Source: an uncultured Erysipelotrichaceae bacterium (GTDB taxonomy: Bacteria > Bacillota_I > Bacilli_A > Erysipelotrichales > Erysipelotrichaceae). Taken from it: a DNA stretch of 64,000 bases. The position numbers and the translations under genes are program-made. Positions 18,199 through 57,557 of this stretch are shown piece by piece. How positions within the stretch are numbered: the stretch's first letter is position 1; each line of letters begins with the position of its first letter. Location of the stretch: positions 1 through 64,000 of the forward strand of contig CACYXJ010000001.1 in NCBI GenBank assembly GCA_902778375.1, read 5' to 3'. The notes below the pieces were generated by a model. The model was given only the letters and a program-made list of their open reading frames with translations. It did no database searches and was not told where the DNA came from.

Positions 18199-18498
18199 AT
18201 GGTGAAGAAAGGAGCAGCAGAAATGAAAGATTCAGAACTCAAAGAAATCACCGGCGGCAATTCATCGGAATTTGATGCAATCGTAAGATGGATCAGGCAG
18301 AACGATCCGAAGAATTATTCTCCGGCCATGGAGAATGACAGGATCCTTGTTGTCCGCTGGATGAAGAATAATCTGCCGGGATTCAAAAAGTGCAGCTTTC
18401 ATCAGGACGGCGCAAACGAGTATTACTTCCAGAACAGCGGCGATGATCCGCTCAACAACACCGAGCTGCTCAGACTGATGCAGAATACGCTTGGCTGA
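18199..18498 (+). CDS. Small protein with double-glycine leader
   Basis: The reading frame has two plausible starts: 18199 (after AAGAGG) and 18223 (after AAAGGAG), the second giving the short leader MKDSELKEITGG. The leader looks like a bacteriocin-type double-glycine signal (acidic, hydrophobic residues at -4 and -7, Gly-Gly). The 79 residues after Gly-Gly are mixed polar, with one Cys, and unlike a classical bacteriocin; the C-terminal DDPLNNTELLRLMQNTLG is helical. Function unknown. It is one of several such genes in the window. Confidence 0.65.
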   Translation: MVKKGAAEMKDSELKEITGGNSSEFDAIVRWIRQNDPKNYSPAMENDRILVVRWMKNNLPGFKKCSFHQDGANEYYFQNSGDDPLNNTELLRLMQNTLG

Positions 18499-22874: not shown

Positions 22875-25601
22875 ATGTCTGAAAGAGATGAACTGTTTGA
22901 AAGAAAGATCGCTTCCGGGATCCTGGAGGAGATGGGCTGCAGCCGCTTCGAAGTGAATGCGGACCATTTTGAAATCAATGAAGAAGCAAGAGCCAGCATT
23001 GACGACGGACTGATCGTCAGGATCAGAAAGATCATGCATCCTGCTCTTTTCAGAATGTTCCTGGAATATCTGAACGAACAGGATATGCTGGATTCCTATA
23101 TCGATGATGACAATTCCGAAGAACTGGATCCTCTGCGGCAGAGTTTCGCGGAAACAGTGACACTGTCCGTACTGCAGCAGAAGGTTCCTTCCCTCGTCAG
23201 ACTGATTCAGAAAACATATGAAACCTACCGGTCTGTGATCCTGGAAATGATACAGCGGATGGACCTTGCATATGAAGATATCTGTACAAAGCTGTTGCAG
23301 GAGAATCATTTTAAAACCCTGACGGGTGTGAAAGCCGACAGCGGCGATGTGCATAATTGCGGCCATACAACGACGATCCTGACGACTGATGCCGGAAAGG
23401 TCGTATACAAACCGCATGATGTACGGATCGATGTGAAATCAAAGGAACTGATCGATACTTTCTTTTCCGATGTCATGCAGGCACCAGCCGTATGCTGTTA
23501 TGAAGACTACGGCTTTGTCGAATTCGTTGTCAGCCAGCCGGCGGACACGGATGAGAAGGCAAGGCAGTACTGCTACAACCTGGGCGGTCTTTCGACAATG
23601 GTGCTGATGCTGGGCAGCAGCGACCTGCACCACAGCAATGTCCTTTCCAGGGGAGTTTATCCTGTTATTATCGATTACGAACTGATGATGACACCGGGCA
23701 GGGATACCAAGGAGAATTCATTGGCGCACGATCTGCGGTATTCGCTGTTGTACAGTTCCCTGATGCCGCAGCGGAGGGAAGAAATCGAAATGAGCATTCT
23801 TTTCGCCAAGGATGAAAAGAATCTCAGTTCCCCGCTGGTCGACGGCGAAAGGAAATGCGTCACGGATTATCCCGATGCCTTCTTTGAAGGTTTCAGAAAT
23901 ACCTACAGAAGATGCATGGAACAGAAAGAGGAACTGAAGGAGTTCGTCCGTTCCATGAAGGAAATCTATGTCCGACATATCTACCGCAATACCGGTGCCT
24001 ACAGCGTTCTTCTCGACAAGACACTGGAACCGGCATGGATCGAAGACCCTTCCATGAAAGATGAAGTGTTCAAGCAGCTTTCAGTTGCCATGAAAAGAAG
24101 CGGGGCGGAGAAGACCAATGAAATCACATGGGCGGAAACGGAAGCGATCCTGCGCGGCGATATTCCTTATATGTATATCAGAACCGATACCCGCGACCTG
24201 TATATGGACGGCAGGATCGTATATCATGACTTCTTTTCCAAGAGCTGCATCGATACTGTCCTTTCCCGGATCGACTATCTCAATGACCGGGATTTGGAAT
24301 TCGAGGAAGCACTGCTGCAGAAGGCAATGACCCGGGTGATCCGGCGCAAGCGTAAACCATATGAGATCCGTGAGCGGATCCTGGCCAGAAGAGAGATCAG
24401 CAATGAGTCACTGCTTTCGCATGCGGAAAAGATTTTCCGCGAGATTGCGGAAGATGCTGTCAATACACCCTCCGGCGATATCTGCTGGTTCGGTGTGAAC
24501 TACTTCATGGAAACCGGCATGGAACTCTACGGCAGGGGACTGATTGACGGCATTTCCGGGCTCGCGGTATTCTTTGCAGCCCTGCACAGAATGACATCTG
24601 ATCAGGCAATCAAAGAAAAAGCGGAAGAGCTGGTTGAATACATCATGTTACGGCAGGAAAGATATACGGACAGTATCAGCAATATGGATGTGATCTATCC
24701 CAATATCGAAAGCATTTCCATGTCCAACGGTCTTTGCGGCAAGATGTTTGCCTGCTATCTGGCAGGGAAATACATGAATAACAGCCATTACCTTGAAATC
24801 TGCAGGAAGATGATCCGCCTGCTTCCGAAGATGGACCTGCAGTTTGAGAAGACGGATATCTATAACGGTCTTGCCGGACTTCTGAAGATGCTCTGCCGCT
24901 ATGATGAATTCTTCAACGAGCCGGGAATGAAGGAATTCTGCAATTCCCTGGCAGACAGGATCCTGGCTTCTGCCAGCATTCCCTATAAAGACACAAAGAT
25001 CTGGCGGACATTGTCCAATACCTGGGCAATTTCAGGTGCGGGACATGGTCAGTCCGGTGTCGCTTCCGCTCTGTATATGGCCGGAAAGCGGCTGCACAGA
25101 GAGGACCTGATCGAAGCTGCCCGGGCAGGCTTTGACTTTGAAACTGATGCCTACAGTGTCAAGGTTGGGGCATGGCCGGACCGCAGAAGAAGCGATAGAG
25201 CCGAAGAATACATGACCGGTTACTGCTCGGGTGCGCCGGGTATCGGCATGAATGCTTTATTGCTGGAATATGAAGGCCATGAAGAGACCTTGAAAAGAGC
25301 CCTGCGGAGCACCTTGAAAGAACCGCTGATGTACAAGGATTTCCTGTGCTGCGGCAACAGCGCCATGGTGGAATTCCTGCTGCTTGCCGGAACGAAGCTG
25401 CAGCAGCAGGACCTGGTGGAAGAAGCAAGGACAAGAATGGCAATGGTCATTGCCAGAGCGGAAAGAAACGGCCATTACCAGTGCATTAACAAAAGCATGA
25501 ACCACGTCTTCAATTCGAGTCTTTTCTACGGCACGGCGGGAATCGGCTATGAGATGCTGCGGCTGATTTCACCGGACACAACGGAATGCCTGCTTCTGTA
25601 A
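22875..25601 (+). CDS. lanM: Class II lanthipeptide synthetase LanM (CCG-type cyclase)
   Basis: A 908-residue bifunctional enzyme. The N-terminal dehydratase (DUF4135-like) phosphorylates and eliminates Ser/Thr in precursor peptides; visible catalytic residues are Lys179 in VVYKPHD, Asp250-His252-Asn255 in DLHHSN, and Asp267/Glu269 in IIDYE. The C-terminal LanC-like cyclase adds Cys thiols to form lanthionine rings; zinc ligands are Cys784 (YCSGAPGIG) and Cys825-Cys826 in CCGN. Most LanC/LanM proteins have CHG; CCG gives three Cys ligands, as in the substrate-tolerant ProcM group. Length is near the lower end for LanM. TGAGGTAA precedes the start. Five precursor genes follow, starting 77 bases after the stop. 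Confidence 0.95.
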   Translation: MSERDELFERKIASGILEEMGCSRFEVNADHFEINEEARASIDDGLIVRIRKIMHPALFRMFLEYLNEQDMLDSYIDDDNSEELDPLRQSFAETVTLSVLQQKVPSLVRLIQKTYETYRSVILEMIQRMDLAYEDICTKLLQENHFKTLTGVKADSGDVHNCGHTTTILTTDAGKVVYKPHDVRIDVKSKELIDTFFSDVMQAPAVCCYEDYGFVEFVVSQPADTDEKARQYCYNLGGLSTMVLMLGSSDLHHSNVLSRGVYPVIIDYELMMTPGRDTKENSLAHDLRYSLLYSSLMPQRREEIEMSILFAKDEKNLSSPLVDGERKCVTDYPDAFFEGFRNTYRRCMEQKEELKEFVRSMKEIYVRHIYRNTGAYSVLLDKTLEPAWIEDPSMKDEVFKQLSVAMKRSGAEKTNEITWAETEAILRGDIPYMYIRTDTRDLYMDGRIVYHDFFSKSCIDTVLSRIDYLNDRDLEFEEALLQKAMTRVIRRKRKPYEIRERILARREISNESLLSHAEKIFREIAEDAVNTPSGDICWFGVNYFMETGMELYGRGLIDGISGLAVFFAALHRMTSDQAIKEKAEELVEYIMLRQERYTDSISNMDVIYPNIESISMSNGLCGKMFACYLAGKYMNNSHYLEICRKMIRLLPKMDLQFEKTDIYNGLAGLLKMLCRYDEFFNEPGMKEFCNSLADRILASASIPYKDTKIWRTLSNTWAISGAGHGQSGVASALYMAGKRLHREDLIEAARAGFDFETDAYSVKVGAWPDRRRSDRAEEYMTGYCSGAPGIGMNALLLEYEGHEETLKRALRSTLKEPLMYKDFLCCGNSAMVEFLLLAGTKLQQQDLVEEARTRMAMVIARAERNGHYQCINKSMNHVFNSSLFYGTAGIGYEMLRLISPDTTECLLL

Positions 25602-25677
25602 AAAAACAGCATCGAAAATCACTTGAAACTTATAAAAAATGAATATATGATGGTATGCTATTTAGGAGGGAGTTTAT

Positions 25678-25896
25678 ATGGAAAAAACAACGCTGGCTTC
25701 TTTGAAAGAAAAGAGCAGAGAAGAAAGAGCGCAGTTCTTTAACAGCAGCAAAGTTGAACTGATGGATGAACTCCTGGATGCTGTTAACGGCGGAACCACA
25801 GCAGCTATGGGGGAGAATCCCAATTCTGAGGCTGCTTATGGTAACCACTGGTTCTCGTCTTTTGGATATGTATGCAACGGCACAGTGATTTGCTGA
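25678..25896 (+). CDS. Lanthipeptide precursor 1 (LanA-like)
   Basis: A 72-residue precursor: a 39-residue leader ending LLDAVNGG and a 33-residue core beginning TTAAMGENPNSE. The core ends WFSSFGYVCNGTVIC, with two Cys in the conserved CxGxxxC spacing and Ser pairs before them for rings; extra Thr at core positions 1 and 2. AGGAGGGAG precedes the start. It is the first of five tandem precursors behind lanM and the most divergent in its N-terminal core. Confidence 0.92.
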   Translation: MEKTTLASLKEKSREERAQFFNSSKVELMDELLDAVNGGTTAAMGENPNSEAAYGNHWFSSFGYVCNGTVIC

Positions 25897-25918
25897 GAAA
25901 CAGAAAAGAGGTATGGAA

Positions 25919-26110
25919 ATGTTAGAAATGAACAGAGAAGAAAGAAAGTGTTTCCTTGAAAACAACAAGCCGGAACTGTCCGACAGTATGCTCGATGCAG
26001 TGAACGATGACTGTGGAACAGAAGTGGAAAACCCGGATTCCGACTGCCCGTATAAAGGCAACTGGATTTCCTCAGAAGGTTTTGTCTGCAAAGGCGAAGT
26101 TCAGTGCTGA
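25919..26110 (+). CDS. Lanthipeptide precursor 2 (LanA-like)
   Basis: A short precursor of 63 residues from ATG 25919 (65 from 25913; the GAGG at 25908-25911 fits 25919 better). The leader is shortened at its N-terminus and the cleavage motif is AVNDD, so Gly-Gly is replaced by Asp-Asp. The core, starting CGTEVENPDSDCPYKGNW, has four Cys in all, including the conserved final CKGEVQC. The Asp-Asp site may alter or block cleavage by a Gly-Gly peptidase. Confidence 0.85.
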   Translation: MLEMNREERKCFLENNKPELSDSMLDAVNDDCGTEVENPDSDCPYKGNWISSEGFVCKGEVQC

Positions 26111-26139
26111 GGTAAAAATAAAGAACGAGGGAGAAGACT

Positions 26140-26370
26140 ATGGATAAAGAACTACTTGAATCCCTGAAGAACAAGAGCAGGGATGAACGCAGGGCTTATT
26201 TTGAAGAGCATAAAACTGAACTGCTTGAAAACGCACTTCTGTCCGTCAACGGCGGATACGAGGAAATGCTGCCAGAGTACAGAAACCCGAACTCTGACTG
26301 TCCCGATTATTTTGGCTACTGGCAGACATCCTGGAATTTCATCTGCAGAGGACAGTTGATCTGCATGTAA
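26140..26370 (+). CDS. Lanthipeptide precursor 3 (LanA-like)
   Basis: 76 residues: leader ending LLSVNGG and a core of 37 residues with YRNPNSDCPDYFGYW, TSWNFICRGQLIC and one extra Met at the end. Three core Cys. The leader follows the common pattern KELLESLK.KSR.ER..YF shared by precursors 3 to 6. GAGGGAG lies upstream. Confidence 0.93.
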   Translation: MDKELLESLKNKSRDERRAYFEEHKTELLENALLSVNGGYEEMLPEYRNPNSDCPDYFGYWQTSWNFICRGQLICM

Positions 26371-26400
26371 GCAACCCTTGGAAAAACGGAGGAAAAGATC

Positions 26401-26631
26401 ATGGAGAAAGAATTATTGGAAACCTTGAAGACCAAGAACAGGGAAGAACGTCTGTCTTATTTCAACGAACACAAATCCGAGCTTCTTGACGAGGCGCTTC
26501 AGTCTGTTAACGGCGGAGCAGATGAATTTCCGGAGGAATACAGAAACCCGGATTCAGAAGTTCCTGATCGTTTTGGCAACTGGCTTTCATCCTGGAATTT
26601 TGTATGCCGGGGCCGTGAAATCTGCAAATAA
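26401..26631 (+). CDS. Lanthipeptide precursor 4 (LanA-like)
   Basis: 76 residues with leader ending LQSVNGG. The core contains YRNPDSEVPDRFGNW and SSWNFVCRGREIC, ending in Lys; two Cys. It is closest to precursor 3 in the core and to precursors 5 and 6 in the leader (FNEHKSELLD). GGAGG precedes the start. Confidence 0.93.
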   Translation: MEKELLETLKTKNREERLSYFNEHKSELLDEALQSVNGGADEFPEEYRNPDSEVPDRFGNWLSSWNFVCRGREICK

Positions 26632-26660
26632 TTGAACGATATTAAACAGGAGGTTTGAAA

Positions 26661-26888
26661 ATGGAGAAAGAATTACTGGAATCCCTGAAGGCAAAGAGCA
26701 GGGAAGAGCGTATGGAGTATTTCAACGCACACAAATCTGAGCTTCTTGACGATTCTCTCGAAGCAGTCAGCGGCGGCTATGATCTCAAAGACAGAAACCC
26801 CAACACAGAATCTCGCGGCGACAACGACGGAAACGGCAACTACTACACATCCTGGGGCTGGACCTGCCAGGGTGAAGTCCGCTGCTGA
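26661..26888 (+). CDS. Lanthipeptide precursor 5 (LanA-like)
   Basis: 75 residues; start at 26661 is set by AGGAGG seven bases upstream. Leader ends LEAVSGG. The 36-residue core is YDLKDRNPNTESRGDNDGNG followed by NYYTSWGWTCQGEVRC, with two Cys and several Ser/Thr. The core differs by a single residue from that of the precursor at 57330-57557. A terminator follows at 26957. Confidence 0.94.
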   Translation: MEKELLESLKAKSREERMEYFNAHKSELLDDSLEAVSGGYDLKDRNPNTESRGDNDGNGNYYTSWGWTCQGEVRC

Positions 26889-26956
26889 GTACAGGAAGCA
26901 TTGATCGCGGACAAAACTGCCGGTACACATCCGGCGGCCAGGAACCACATAAAACA

Positions 26957-26985
26957 AAGGGAGAAATGATAATCTCCCTTTTTTC
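26957..26985. terminator. Terminator after the precursor array
   Basis: GGGAGA (26959-26964) and TCTCCC (26973-26978) with flanking A and T runs, between the last precursor and the convergent lipoprotein gene. Confidence 0.82.
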
Positions 26986-26990
26986 ATGCC

Positions 26991-27959
26991 TTATTTCCTG
27001 TAATGTTCCTGCCAGTAATCCTCGGCGTCTTCGAAGTCATAGAAGTCGTCTGGATGCCAGTACCAGAATTCATACGGATCGGAATAATCACATACATCGA
27101 ATGGATCATTCCGGCAGCTATTGTCATCTTTTCTGTTTGATGGCGTATAGCCGGAATTCTGCTGTCTCTGCCATTCAAACAGATACTGCTGGTATGCTGC
27201 CATGACTGTTTCCCTGTCTTTGGCATATTGAGCCTGTAAAGAAGCAGGCAGTAATGAGGCATCCTTATTATGCATGCTGGTGTAGGCAAGCGTATAATCC
27301 CCGTCGAGGTAGTATTCCATTGCATATGCATAATCGTGCAAAGCGAGGAATAGTTTCCTTGTTTCCTCATCGATCAGACCTGTTTCATACCAGTACTGAT
27401 CTTTCAGTTTATTAAGATACTGTTCATGCACTTTTCCGGCTGCTTCTTCATATTTCTGCTGTTCAAGAAGAGAAGTAATGGCCGGGATGCTTTCATGAAA
27501 AGCTGCGGCGTATGCATCTGCCAGTTCCGTATAATAGATTTTATATTGTTTGTTGAAAGCACTCAGCATTTCATCATAATGCGGCTTCAGTTCTTCCGGG
27601 ATCTTTGTTCGGCTGACTCCGTTTTGGAAAGCTTCTTTGGCTTCATCCAGCTGTCCATCTTCCGCTAGCAGCAATGCTTCAAGATATCTTCTGAGATTCT
27701 TTAATTCCCCGACATGTTCCTTGTAAAGAGGATCATCAATAGTACAGAAATCATCGATCAGCACAATCGCCCGGTCATATTCATTATCCAGAAACAGCTG
27801 ATAGATCTCTTCTTTCCTGGAAGTTATATCACCCGGTTTCCATACTTCTTCTGCTACAGACTCTGCAGTATGAAGTGTGTTGCCAATAGTGTTACCGGTG
27901 CAGGACATCATGAAAACAGCTGTACAGATCATTATCATTTTCAGCAGTCTTTTCTTCAT
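26991..27959 (-). CDS. Putative lipoprotein, 322 residues
   Basis: The N-terminus has a lipoprotein signal: KKR, a hydrophobic stretch and the lipobox MMSC with Cys20. The mature protein is helical, with TPR-like pairs (EEIYQLFLDNEYDRAIVLID, and YEEAAGKVHEQYLNKLKDQY). The C-terminus is remarkable for tyrosine, tryptophan and aspartate content (DPYEFWYWHPDDFYDFEDAEDY). Family unknown. Its relation to the lanthipeptide locus, if any, is only positional; surface lipoproteins can act in immunity. Confidence 0.82.
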   Translation of the reverse strand: MKKRLLKMIMICTAVFMMSCTGNTIGNTLHTAESVAEEVWKPGDITSRKEEIYQLFLDNEYDRAIVLIDDFCTIDDPLYKEHVGELKNLRRYLEALLLAEDGQLDEAKEAFQNGVSRTKIPEELKPHYDEMLSAFNKQYKIYYTELADAYAAAFHESIPAITSLLEQQKYEEAAGKVHEQYLNKLKDQYWYETGLIDEETRKLFLALHDYAYAMEYYLDGDYTLAYTSMHNKDASLLPASLQAQYAKDRETVMAAYQQYLFEWQRQQNSGYTPSNRKDDNSCRNDPFDVCDYSDPYEFWYWHPDDFYDFEDAEDYWQEHYRK

Positions 27960-28190: not shown

Positions 28191-31100
28191 ATGGTATTAA
28201 AGAAATCGGCCCATCAGTTATTCACAGATCGTGATGAACCCAGGAAAGCTTACTGGGATGCTTTAAGAGTACTTGAGGAGCATCCACGTCAAACCTATGT
28301 AATTACATATTACGGTGAAGGCGGTATAGGAAAATCCTGACTTTTATCCGAATTGAAGAGGAACACGGAAAGAATGTATGAAGAAGGAAGTATTCCTGTT
28401 TTTGATGACGGTTTCTCCTTCAGGGGCGAATACATACCTGTTCTCTATAATCTTGAGACTTCTACCGATACCATTGAAATACTGTGTCAATTGCGTTACG
28501 CATTGTATCAATTAAAACCTGATCTGGCCTTTCCTCTGTTTGACTGCGCTGTGAAAAAATACATGGATCTATCCGGCAAAAAGCTGGCACAGCCATCCGG
28601 TTCCAGTTCTTTGGTTTTGGAAAAATATGGCAACTTTCTGGATACGGCAGCCATGTTCATACCTGGATTAGGAACACTGAATTCAGTTTATTCCTATGTT
28701 AAAAAGGGAGGGTCTGTATTGAATGCAGCAATGCAGAAAATCGAAGATAAACAGATTCGTGAACTATACAAGGAATACTTTGAAGCGATCTCCTACAGTG
28801 AAACAGTAGATGATATCTCTGACAATATCGTTGAATTCTTCAAAACTGACCTCAACAACAGCGAAAGAGACTATTCGATCGTATTCATGATTGATACCTT
28901 TGAAGTGCTCAGTTATAACACAGGTTTAAAAGATCAAAGCTGGATTACAAAAGAACTGGCAAAGAATACTGAAAACACATTATGGGTGTTTGCGGGAAGA
29001 AACAGAATCTATCCCGGAGGAGATGAGAATGAACATCTTCTGGGAGATCTCTCCAGGGAAGATACACTTTATTATCTGCGTGAAAAGATAGGCATCACGG
29101 ATGAAAGTATCAATGAAAGAATATATGAGATTTCCCACGGAACACCTATATTCCTGGATATCTGTGTACAGAATTACAGAAATGAAGGAAATCCTTCCAT
29201 AGAAGAATACAAGAATCTGGATAAAGAACTGCTTCTGAAGAGGTATATCAAATATCTCAGTGACAGCGAGAGACTTGTTATAAGACTTATGTCTTCCATG
29301 AGTCACTGGAATGATGCTGACTATAAGTACGTTTTTAATGATGTTCACAATAATAGTTATTCTCAATACAGTGAAGCTTATAACAATGTCGTAAAATCCA
29401 CGATGATTGAAAAAGACAATGAAGACAGATGGTTCTTACACAGAGCAGTGAGAGCAGGTATTTATGAGGACCCTGATTATCCTGGCGAAGTAAAATCTGC
29501 GACATTGACTGCGATTCTTGCCCTCTATGCCGCAAGGGCTAAGGAAGGCGAAAATGCCAATTATTATTGCGACAGGATCATTGAATTGATTCGCTCACTT
29601 GCCTCATACAAAGAACAGCTTAGTGATGACGATACAAAACTGTTAAGGGATGCTGTGTTTGAGTTCCTGCCGGAATTGTATTCCAAAGGCACTTCGAGGA
29701 TCAGGGAAATGAATGCCCTGTTTGATGAATACTCAGATTTCCTGTGCCATTCGGAACTCTCTAAAGCACATATATTGGTTATCAAGTGGGGAATGCTGAA
29801 TTATCTTGGAAAGTACTCGGATCCTGATTATACAGGAGATTATTCCTATCGTATCTATGAGAAGGAATATGGACCGGATGATCCTGATACGTTAGAATGC
29901 CTGCGCAGACTGTCCGAAAGCCATTTGACAAACGGACATTATATGGAAGCGTTTGAATATGCGGAAAAGTTATACAGCCGTTGTAAACGGATCTTTGGAG
30001 AAGAAGATCATAAAACCCTGGTTGCGATGGGCACACTGGCAGATGCCTGCGAGTGCCTTGGCCGGTATAAGCAGGCAATCGAACTGTACCAGAGAAAATA
30101 TGATCTGTTTCTCAAAATGAATGACGGCAAGGAAGATGATCAGACTATATCTGCTCTGCAGGGCATTGCACAGATCCACAAGGATCTGCATGATTACAAC
30201 AAGGCACTGGAAGAGCAAAAAAGAATCTGTGCATACTACGTTGGCAAATTCGGAGAGAATCATCCGGACAGTATAATGAGTCTGAACGACCTCGCATTAT
30301 CCTATAGTGATTTTGGAGACTATCAAACAGCAAAGGAAATGTATGAAGAAGCCTATAGGAAATCATCTGAACTGTTGGGGAAAGACCATCCCGAAACGCT
30401 TGTTCATTTAAGCAATATTGCAAGTGTATACAATGACATGGGCGATTACGGGAAGTCTCTTCAGTTATATACAGAATTGTATGAAACTCGAAGAACCATT
30501 CTCGGAAAAGATCATTTGAAAACGATCTGGTCATTGAACGCAGTCGGAAACGAATATCAAAATCAAGGCCATTTTACAAAAGCGAGAACATGTTTTAAAG
30601 AAGCTTATGAATTATCGTTAAATCGATATGGTGAAGATCATCCGACAACGATTACCTGTCTTGAAAATATAGCTCTGCTTGATAAAGATTTGGAATTATA
30701 TGATGATGCAGTCTCACTTTATGAAAAGATTTACGAATTGAGACAGAGATCACTCGGCGAAGAAAATCCATCTACGATCAGTGCATTGGGCCAGATTGCA
30801 GATATAACCAGATTGGCGGGAGATATCTCTAAAGCATTGGAATACTACGAGGAGGTTTATGAAAAGAGAAAGCGTGTATTTGGTGAGGATAATCCGGATA
30901 CAGTCAAAACTCTGACATCTATTGCATACTGTTACTCCCGACAGGGTAATCATAATGAAGCACTGGATCTTGACCAACAGGCATACAGACTGATTGTACA
31001 AAGAGAAGGAAAGGATACAGCAAATGCACTGAATACGCTCTTTGATGTCGGAAGAGAACTCGAGTGGCTGAAAAGATACAAAGAATCACTTGACGTCATG

Positions 31101-31583
31101 GAAGAGGTTTATGAAGGACAGGTCAAAAGAGCGGGAGAAACAAGCAATGCTGCTCTAAAGGTTCTGTACGCAAAAAGCAGACTTTATAAAAGTCTGGGTG
31201 ATTATAAAAAGGCTTTGAAATATGCCCTGGACACTTATAACCTGTCAGTGAAATCTTTCGGCACTGATAGTATAAATACATGTGTATACAAAAGCGAACT
31301 TGGCATCGCGTATTATAATGTCAAAGACTACGAAAAGGCTCTTGAGGTATTTGACACGCTCCATACAAAGCTCGTCAGAGTATATGGCAGAAACAACGAT
31401 CATACACTTATTATTCTTAACTGGAAAGGCTGTACACTGTATTATCTGGGAAGAAACAAAGAAGCTCTGAATGCACTGAAAGAAGTGTTTGACAGCTATA
31501 TCGGTATATTCGGTGAAAATCATCCCAGAACCGCAGCAATTCAAAGCTGGATTAAAAGAATAATGAAAGAAATGGACACCTAA
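28191..31583 (+). pseudogene. STAND/NB-ARC-like NTPase with kinesin-light-chain-type TPRs, interrupted by TGA
   Basis: From ATG 28191 (GTGAGGAG upstream) the frame reads 49 codons, ending TYYGEGGIGKS, then TGA at 28338-28340, then stays open in the same frame to 31583. Joined, it would be about 1,130 residues. The N-terminal segment supplies the Walker A motif of a STAND-type NTPase; residues about 150-420 are NTPase and winged-helix-like; from about 560 on are ten or more 42-residue TPRs of the kinesin light chain type (GEDHPTTITCLENIALL). STAND proteins with TPRs often act in phage sensing. A TCA-to-TGA change after GKS would explain the stop. Translation could restart inside, but would lack the P-loop. 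Confidence 0.85.
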
Positions 31584-31771: not shown

Positions 31772-32245
31772 ATGGAAAAAAGACCCGATTTGCATATCGA
31801 TATTCCAGATCTGGAGTTCGATGAAACCGAACAAACATTAGTTTTACCAAAACAGAATACGACTATGGACGAAGCATCACAAAACAATGACACCGCAGTA
31901 TTCCGGACAGAAGAAATACTGACAATCATAGAGAATAAAGTGAATCAGGAACCGAAGCGCAGAAAAAGAAACAGAGTTAAAGATGTGTTTAAGAAAAGGA
32001 ATAATGAAAGAGAACAGGATATGGCAGACGAATTACTTGCAGAAGATATCGAAGAAGTAGTAGGCGGCAATGGGGCGGATATAAACAATCAGTACAGCTG
32101 CCCCAACTGCAACAGCAGAGATTTTACCCGAACCTTGCGTCGTATTTCACCAACCAAAACCATTGTGGTGAACAAATGCAATCTATGCGGCACAACGTGG
32201 AAAAACAGCTACGACAATTCAGGTTCTAATGATGATTTACAGTAG
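31772..32245 (+). CDS. Double-glycine-motif protein with C-terminal zinc ribbon
   Basis: A 157-residue protein. The first 85 residues are charged and low-complexity. Then MADELLAEDIEEVVGG resembles a complete double-glycine leader, and the following 60 residues hold a zinc ribbon (YSCPNCNSRDF and NKCNLCGTTW). A GGGGAGGTGA ribosome site precedes ATG 31772, so the long start is preferred, though Met84 would give a leader of normal size. No known family. It shares its plan, leader-like region, Gly-Gly and two CxxC knuckles, with the genes at 32377 and 42545. Confidence 0.75.
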   Translation: MEKRPDLHIDIPDLEFDETEQTLVLPKQNTTMDEASQNNDTAVFRTEEILTIIENKVNQEPKRRKRNRVKDVFKKRNNEREQDMADELLAEDIEEVVGGNGADINNQYSCPNCNSRDFTRTLRRISPTKTIVVNKCNLCGTTWKNSYDNSGSNDDLQ

Positions 32246-32376: not shown

Positions 32377-32871
32377 ATGACAAAACTCAACAACGAAGAA
32401 ACAATCGAAAAAGTTACCGGTGGAACAGATAAGATGGCTGACCTGAAAAAATCTCTTGCTGACATGATTGGCGAAGATGTGATGAAAAAGCTGGAGAATG
32501 TCTACAGCGATGTTGAAGTATGCAAGATCCTTGCTGAAAACGGCATCGATCTTGAGAAAGTTGAAAAGAGGATCGCCGACGCAGGTCTGAATATGAAAAG
32601 AATCGGACTGCAGCTTCCGGATGACAATCTGTCCGAAATCAGCGGCGGCTTCTACGATAAAGATCAGGATGATGATATCGACTGCCCGAATTGCGGTAAT
32701 GACATCAGAGATGACTTTTCCAGACAGTGGTTTGCATCTCTGACATCCCCGGCGGAAAGTATTTACCGCTGCAAAAAATGCGGTATGTTTACTGCAGTAA
32801 TGGGTAAAGACATGGTCATTTACTCGGATTTCAACCTGGATGTACTTGTCGATCACCTCAAAAAACTATAA
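32377..32871 (+). CDS. Protein with two double-glycine motifs and a zinc ribbon
   Basis: A 164-residue protein in three parts: residues 1-16 end NEETIEKVTGG; residues about 17-85 are a helical domain with Nif11-like character and end DDNLSEISGGF; the last 70 residues are a zinc ribbon with IDCPNCGND and YRCKKCGMF. It thus contains two separate leader-like Gly-Gly motifs. AGAGGAG precedes the start. Function unknown; the helical domain before the second Gly-Gly is similar in length and character to Nif11-type leader peptides of RiPP precursors. Confidence 0.75.
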   Translation: MTKLNNEETIEKVTGGTDKMADLKKSLADMIGEDVMKKLENVYSDVEVCKILAENGIDLEKVEKRIADAGLNMKRIGLQLPDDNLSEISGGFYDKDQDDDIDCPNCGNDIRDDFSRQWFASLTSPAESIYRCKKCGMFTAVMGKDMVIYSDFNLDVLVDHLKKL

Positions 32872-42439: not shown

Positions 42440-42544
42440 AAACAAAACATCTCAGCGTTACAGACAGTTAAGAAAGATTCTGTGTTACTGAACAGAATGA
42501 CAGTATATAATGAACTGCAGAGGATATCTGCCGGGAGGTACATC

Positions 42545-42976
42545 ATGGATATTAAAGACATCATCCTTAATGCGAAAAGTGTTGAACAGTTCAGGGACCT
42601 GATGAAGGAAGAAGGAAGAGAACTGTCCCAGGAAGAAGCAGAATCAATGTTTTCATATCTCGTAAAGGGAGAAGAACTCTCTGAAAATGAACTGACAGCT
42701 GTGAGTGGCGGCTGGGGAGGAGACTATCGTGACTATGCCTCGGAAGGCTGTGAAGCTACCGTTGAGATAGGAAGTGACTGCTGGGGCATAGACGGCGGAT
42801 GCGAAATGGTCAACGTCCGTTACGAACATGCTCCATGCAACACCTGTCCGAGTTGCGGTGCACAGACTGTCTATAGGAACGATGGAGGCGTTAATGTCTT
42901 CTATTACACATGCCGTTCCTGCGGTGCCCGATTCATTAAATGGCCGGATAAGAAAAAATGGGATAAAATCAACTGA
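42545..42976 (+). CDS. Nif11-leader-like double-glycine protein with zinc ribbon
   Basis: A 143-residue protein. Residues 1-57 look like a Nif11-type RiPP leader: SVEQFRDLMKEEGRELSQEE, then LSENELTAVSGG. After Gly-Gly come WGGDYRDYAS, several Cys (EGCEAT, SDCWG, GGCEM) and a C-terminal zinc ribbon (NTCPSCGAQ and YTCRSCGARF). GGGAGGT fixes the start. It could be a true modified peptide, an exported zinc-ribbon protein, or a regulator with a chance Gly-Gly. Confidence 0.78.
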   Translation: MDIKDIILNAKSVEQFRDLMKEEGRELSQEEAESMFSYLVKGEELSENELTAVSGGWGGDYRDYASEGCEATVEIGSDCWGIDGGCEMVNVRYEHAPCNTCPSCGAQTVYRNDGGVNVFYYTCRSCGARFIKWPDKKKWDKIN

Positions 42977-57329: not shown

Positions 57330-57557
57330 ATGGATAAAGAATTACTGGAATCCCTGAAGGGAAAGAGCAGGGAAGAACGTCTGGCTTATTTCAACGAACA
57401 CAAATCCGAATTTCTCGACAGCACGCTCGAATCTGTCAGCGGCGGCTATGATCTCAAAGACAGAAATCCCAACACGGAATCCCGCGGCGACAACGACGGA
57501 AACGGCAACTACTATACATCCTGGGGCTGGACCTGCCAGGGTGTAGTCCGCTGCTGA
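57330..57557 (+). CDS. Lanthipeptide precursor 6 (LanA-like), remote copy
   Basis: 75 residues, with start at 57330 after AAAGGAG (a longer open frame upstream is not supported). Leader ends LESVSGG. The core differs from that of precursor 5 (26661) at one position only: CQGVVRC instead of CQGEVRC. The leader differs at several positions, and downstream DNA is unrelated, so this is a dispersed gene copy 30 kb from lanM. It would be modified in trans by that LanM. A terminator follows. Confidence 0.93.
   Translation: MDKELLESLKGKSREERLAYFNEHKSEFLDSTLESVSGGYDLKDRNPNTESRGDNDGNGNYYTSWGWTCQGVVRC

Follow-up and report, generated by a model that had tools for sequence, protein, structure and literature searches.

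The CCG zinc site is commonly taken as the mark of promiscuous class II lanthipeptide synthetases (LanM) that stand behind combinatorial peptide diversity. A locus of this type, a LanM gene followed by five precursor genes, lies at 22875-26888 of a 64,000-nucleotide stretch of DNA from an uncultured Erysipelotrichaceae bacterium (contig CACYXJ010000001.1, called C1 here; the whole stretch is referred to as the window). It raises the question of whether a ProcM-like combinatorial system operates in this lineage, as the initial annotation had proposed. Our analysis suggests another answer: a single CCG-type LanM probably modifies at least eight paralogous precursors with double-glycine (GG) leaders, five adjacent to its gene and three elsewhere in the genome, whose products would be exported by NHLM/NHLP-type pairs. 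In our reading, the precursors form a family of paralogous lanthipeptides built on a fixed scaffold.

By family models and alignment, the product of the gene at 22875-25601 (+ strand, ATG start, 908 aa) is a class II LanM with a CCG cyclase. It matches TIGR03897 with an E-value of 3e-156 and 521.7 bits, where the cut-off is 304, and fuses the Pfam domain DUF4135 (dehydratase) to LANC_like (cyclase). The dehydratase residues are K179, D250, H252, N255, D267, R367, R371 and T373, those of the cyclase H724, C784, C825 and C826. The first seven, as well as H724, C784 and C825, are conserved when the protein is aligned with LanMs of the CHG type, the sole zinc-ligand change being His to Cys at position 826. 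Both the class assignment of the initial annotation and its description of the zinc site were borne out, the latter to the residue: Cys784 and the CCGN motif at 825-828 provide three Cys zinc ligands. Foldseek searches with a structure model of LanM retrieved LicM2 (E 2e-16) and CylM (E 2e-15) as the best solved structures; the mean predicted local distance difference test (pLDDT) score of the model is only 63, and the zinc geometry is not readable from it. DUF4135 occurs in one gene of the genome, which thus encodes a single LanM.

The CCGN motif is present in 13 of 13 members of the clade to which the window LanM belongs. In a tree, ProcM and the cyanobacterial CCG LanMs not being among its sequences, a branch with full support separates this clade from nine LanMs that lack CCGN. 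LcnDR2, SalM and the other LanMs compared are of the CHG type and 21-24% identical to the window LanM, and the best cyanobacterial match, on a Trichormus plasmid, is CHG as well. Close relatives, of which an exact short-pattern search of genome contigs found at least seven, belong to Solobacterium/Erysipelotrichaceae assemblies, several of ruminant origin, and to two Oscillospiraceae, Saccharofermentans RUI031 and Ruminococcaceae YRB3002. A divergent CCGN LanM with 27% identity is encoded in G227 (L123, C184, 6662-9262), a genome that also carries two main-clade LanMs.

The five genes that follow LanM span 1.21 kb of the + strand (25678-26888). They comprise precursor 1 (25678-25896, core ...NPNSEAAYGNHWFSSFGYVCNGTVIC), precursor 2 (25913-26110, three core Cys), precursor 3 (26140-26370, three core Cys and one residue beyond the last Cys), precursor 4 (26401-26631) and precursor 5 (26661-26888). 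Each is an open reading frame that matches a profile including homologues from other genera with E-values of 1e-29 to 1e-33, and the array is therefore not a product of chance. A purine-rich, Shine-Dalgarno-like stretch lies 5' of every one of them. Precursor 2 probably starts at ATG 25919, since AGAGG abuts the ATG at 25913, and for precursor 5 the ATG at 26661 looks better than the TTG at 26655. Every one of the five has CxGxxxC at its C-terminal end, extended by a single residue in two cases.

The array, reported as five genes in the initial annotation, turned out to be an incomplete set. When the genome was searched with a profile built from the precursors and homologous sequences, eight members were obtained (E 8e-27 to 1e-33), three of which are unlinked to LanM. 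Precursor 6 (57330-57557, + strand) lies within the window, 30 kb from the array, and its core differs from that of precursor 5 at one residue. Another precursor is found beyond the window on the LanM contig, about 63 kb past the array (C1:89858-90091), and one on a different contig (C15:56194-56412). LanM and seven of the eight precursors are thereby all encoded on the one contig C1. In two sister species, G196 and G197, whose LanMs (L005 and L006) are 80-81% identical to the window LanM, the 10 kb on either side of LanM contain no precursor; five and four, respectively, stand at other places, including the homologues of precursor 4 (L005_au and L006_bu), which are distant from LanM. The dispersed loci have counterparts in these species: precursor 6 has two flanking genes in common with copies on G196:C36 and G197:C7, the C15 precursor has neighbours in common with copies on G196:C1 and G197:C26, and the precursor at C1:89858 is set in the same gene neighbourhood as a copy on G196:C62.

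Contamination was considered as the origin of the unlinked precursors and rejected, given that the copies at 57330 and 89858 are on the LanM contig and that neighbours are shared in the sister species. Shared positions together with intact frames thus speak against both contamination and decay. Because there is a single LanM, the sister-species precursors are all unlinked and the dispersed loci have shared neighbourhoods, one CCG LanM most likely serves the dispersed precursors in trans, in the manner of ProcM.

Among 70 genomes of the window's genus, nine carry this LanM subfamily, and the same nine carry precursors (Fisher p 1.5e-11). One of them, G256, was counted as precursor-positive because a leader fragment immediately follows LanM where the contig ends. 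The genomes are nearly all draft assemblies, in which a missing gene may be an assembly gap. A profile search of 392 genomes across the phylum gave no convincing precursor match besides the window's own genome. The precursors match no family in Pfam, NCBIfam or a plasmid collection, in which copies of precursor 5 on plasmids were not found either, and no PHROGs match relevant to a phage link was obtained. Isolated C-terminal LanM fragments of the same CCG subfamily occur in relatives without precursors (L020, G149:C42, 3789-4187; L021, G166:C54, 14125-14415) and are remnants of a lost system.

Leaders and cores were compared in a set of 30 precursors from ten genomes. NPx[ST], a Ser five residues before the first Cys, and both Cys are present in 30 of 30, and a Ser or Thr precedes that Ser in 29, giving a shared core scaffold of NPx[ST]...[ST]S-x4-C-x5-C. 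From NP to the C-terminus the substrates measure 26-30 residues and are aromatic-rich. With GG, GA or GS accepted as a double-Gly leader end, 28 of the 30 end in GG or GA, the exceptions being precursor 2 (DD) and L006_du (DG). Mean pairwise identity over the set is 52.4% for the leader and 52.0% for the core, and within the window genome 56.9% and 47.8%, respectively. In most orthologue and paralogue pairs, nonsynonymous divergence (pN) of the core is well below synonymous divergence (pS), as in G000_7u/L005_cu (pS 0.55, pN 0.02) and precursors 5/6 (pS 0.18, pN 0.01). The precursor cores are under purifying selection in most comparisons.

The enzyme class and its residues, the precursor family with its dispersal, neighbourhoods and core constraint, and a loss of C39 residues described below can be read from the sequence, and the following pathway would be consistent with them. 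LanM most likely recognises a common leader with REER and V[NS]GG motifs and dehydrates the conserved Ser/Thr of NPx[ST] and of the [ST]S pair. Both invariant Cys would then be added to the [ST]S pair; as both Ser/Thr precede both Cys, the resulting two rings would be either nested, with 4 and 11 intervening residues, or crossed, with 5 and 10. The small rings proposed in the initial annotation are hypothetical. An extra Cys just after NPx[ST] in some members might allow a third ring. The products would leave the cell through NHLM/NHLP-type ATP-binding cassette (ABC) pairs encoded at other loci. Since the exporter type that adjoins LanM in other genera has a C39 domain without catalytic residues, the leader is most likely removed by a second, C39-intact NHLP exporter or by another protease.

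No transporter adjoins the window LanM. At loci L009 and L011, from two other genera, a two-gene ABC pair resembling NHLM comes after LanM, and a homologue of that pair lies on contig C25 of the window genome (6464-10879), unlinked to LanM. A second, C39-intact NHLP exporter is encoded at C4:1308-5751 and scores above the NHLP cut-offs. TIGR03796 and TIGR03797 are the best models for both pairs; the C25-type stays below both cut-offs (602 of 853 and 469 of 709, respectively). In the C39 domain, the C4-type reads ECG and NHF, the C25-type GEN and YY. The catalytic Cys of the latter is replaced by Asn in 11 of 11 copies read and the His by Tyr in 9 of 9 readable copies, so that the LanM-associated exporter has lost both residues of an active C39 peptidase. 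The C25-type is present in 7 of 9 LanM-positive and 2 of 61 LanM-negative genomes of the genus (p 1e-6). Genus members without a detected LanM carry it at L136 (G173:C12, 6020-10447) and L137 (G209:C17, 2174-5962). Degenerate C39 domains recruit substrate in Gram-negative toxin exporters (PMC6363468), and by this analogy substrate recruitment and leader cleavage may be split between the two exporters.

The alternative that survives best concerns export only. The C25-type exporter might be unrelated to the pathway, with the C4-type NHLP alone cleaving and exporting all products, which would agree with the presence of the C4-type in every LanM-positive genome of the genus and with the two LanM-negative genomes that hold the C25-type. 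However, two other genera have the C25-type next to LanM and precursors, and it is largely restricted to LanM-positive genomes. We regard export by the C4-type alone as a real possibility, albeit a minority one of roughly a third.

A ProcM-like combinatorial system, in which a promiscuous CCG LanM acts on constant leaders and on cores diversified into many unrelated ring patterns, would account for the CCG motif, the GG leaders and the single LanM with many dispersed precursors. One pair, precursor 5 (G000_5) and L007_1, has core pN close to pS and is an exception to the constraint seen elsewhere. Set against this reading are the equal identities of core and leader, the low core pN in most pairs and the leaders: of 24 precursors searched at E 0.1, none matched Nif11. 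NHLP and known lantibiotic precursor families, including the lacticin- and mersacidin-type, gave no credible match at E 0.1. The initial annotation is supported in placing one three-Cys LanM with many precursors outside marine cyanobacteria, and the dispersal found here adds a further likeness to prochlorosin genes. Its differing, divergent cores were overstated, as one scaffold is common to them, and its ProcM-like label holds for the single CCG enzyme with many dispersed precursors and fails for the Nif11 leader and the non-conserved core. A combinatorial system is thus unlikely.

Equally unlikely, in our judgement, is an ordinary class II lantibiotic that is encoded at a single locus in five tandem copies and whose unlinked copies would be decaying leftovers that LanM does not serve. 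The five tandem copies fit this picture, and the LanM fragments in G149 and G166 demonstrate that the system does decay, but the unlinked copies are intact, constrained and located at loci common to up to three species, and G196 and G197 hold unlinked precursors only. Non-lanthionine products, made by a LanM that is a dehydratase only or containing a Cys-Cys disulfide, would suit two invariant Cys six residues apart and the two Cys gained as a pair in L011_3u and G227_1, but are very improbable in view of the invariant Ser, the near-invariant [ST]S pair, the three-Cys forms and the strict co-occurrence with a LanM of intact cyclase residues.

Several observations weigh against modification of the whole family by one LanM and export by the two pairs as proposed above. 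In L005_du, Ala takes the leading position of the [ST]S pair, precursors with four Cys exist, and the two conserved Cys could form a disulfide instead. Precursor 2 has a shortened leader and VNDD for VNGG at the cleavage site, hence no double-Gly, and may be processed poorly. The statistics for co-occurrence within the genus take the genomes as independent and ignore kinship. On the export side, the C4-type occurs in 9 of 9 LanM-positive but also in 8 of 61 LanM-negative genus genomes, and the C25-type was not found in G196/G250 and G256.

There is precedent for class II lanthipeptides, for CCG LanMs and for rumen clusters with multiple precursors (PMC10027976, PMC6363468, PMC13289728). Closest in layout are the prochlorosins with ProcM (Prochlorococcus MIT9313) and SyncM, where a single CCG LanM serves many dispersed GG-leader precursors (PMC10027976, PMC10783134), as appears to be the case in the window genome. 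Prochlorosins have a Nif11 leader and a core that is not conserved (PMC10783134), whereas the window precursors lack a Nif11 match, keep their cores on one scaffold and belong to a Bacillota gut lineage rather than a cyanobacterium. Among Bacillota lanthipeptides, the lah cluster of Lachnospiraceae C6A11 (LahA1-9, LahT) likewise has many double-Gly precursors (PMC6363468). Its leaders are Nif11, its cores diverse and the C39 domain of LahT active; the window system differs in leader family, in its conserved cores and in a LanM-associated C39-like domain without catalytic residues. Flavecins are alpha/beta two-component peptides from a single cluster with two LanMs, in contrast to one LanM, one scaffold and dispersed genes here. 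They stem from the rumen bacterium Ruminococcus flavefaciens FD-1, with many class II precursors and 12 FlvT substrates (PMC6363468). With the lacticin 481/mersacidin-type the window system has LanM biochemistry and a GG-type leader in common, but the LanMs compared are CHG and 21-24% identical and the precursor families are unmatched. NHLP/NHLM export systems (TIGR03796/TIGR03797) are the best model matches of the two-gene ABC pairs, but the C25-type falls below the cut-offs and is devoid of the C39 Cys and His, and the window precursors have no Nif11 family match.

Further features surround the array. A promoter-like site (TTGAAA-17-TATGAT, 10/12; 25623-25651, + strand) between LanM and the array has the top score among 9 sites found, with 5.5 expected by chance; it is suggestive only and could allow precursor to be made in excess of LanM. 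A stem-loop at 26956-26981, between the array and the convergent gene, is a suggestive, possible terminator; it is predicted on the - strand, and T follows the stem on the + strand too. The convergent gene (26991-27959, - strand) encodes a lipoprotein with no Pfam match, present in only 3 of 14 genomes searched, these three being closely related and LanM-bearing, and convergent with a precursor in two of them. Its homologue adjoins a precursor in G196 and stands alone in G197, which makes the lipoprotein only a candidate for an accessory or immunity protein. Further along the window, 28191-31583 (+) encodes a STAND-like NTPase with tetratricopeptide (TPR) repeats and an in-frame TGA right after the P-loop (GEGGIGKS*), either a broken gene or an assembly error. 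The product of reading frame 42482-42976 (+) matches a Nif11-type leader weakly (E 6e-4, which is under the cut-off) and has VSGG and then a zinc-ribbon-like Cys pattern; it is possibly a GG-leader export substrate rather than a lanthipeptide precursor of the family described here. Small proteins with a Gly-Gly stretch past a leader-like segment are encoded at 18199-18498, 31772-32245 and 32377-32871 (+), the latter two with zinc-ribbon-like CxxC pairs.

In the literature, as far as its partial coverage here extends, this precursor family is not described, nor are dispersed precursors under one LanM for the lineage or a LanM-linked dead-C39 exporter, and nothing relevant was found on Erysipelotrichaceae lanthipeptides. 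More tentatively, and with somewhat less than even confidence, we propose that a Bacillota CCG LanM acts in trans on dispersed precursors while bound to one core scaffold, and that recruitment and export by a dead-C39 exporter are set apart from leader cleavage. Such a system would provide a LanM whose short substrates share one aromatic-rich scaffold, along with a naturally occurring dead-C39 exporter in a lanthipeptide pathway. A CCG clade with many dispersed substrates and constrained cores would render motif, gene dispersal and core diversification separable and testable. If this is true, core diversification need not accompany a CCG motif and dispersed genes.

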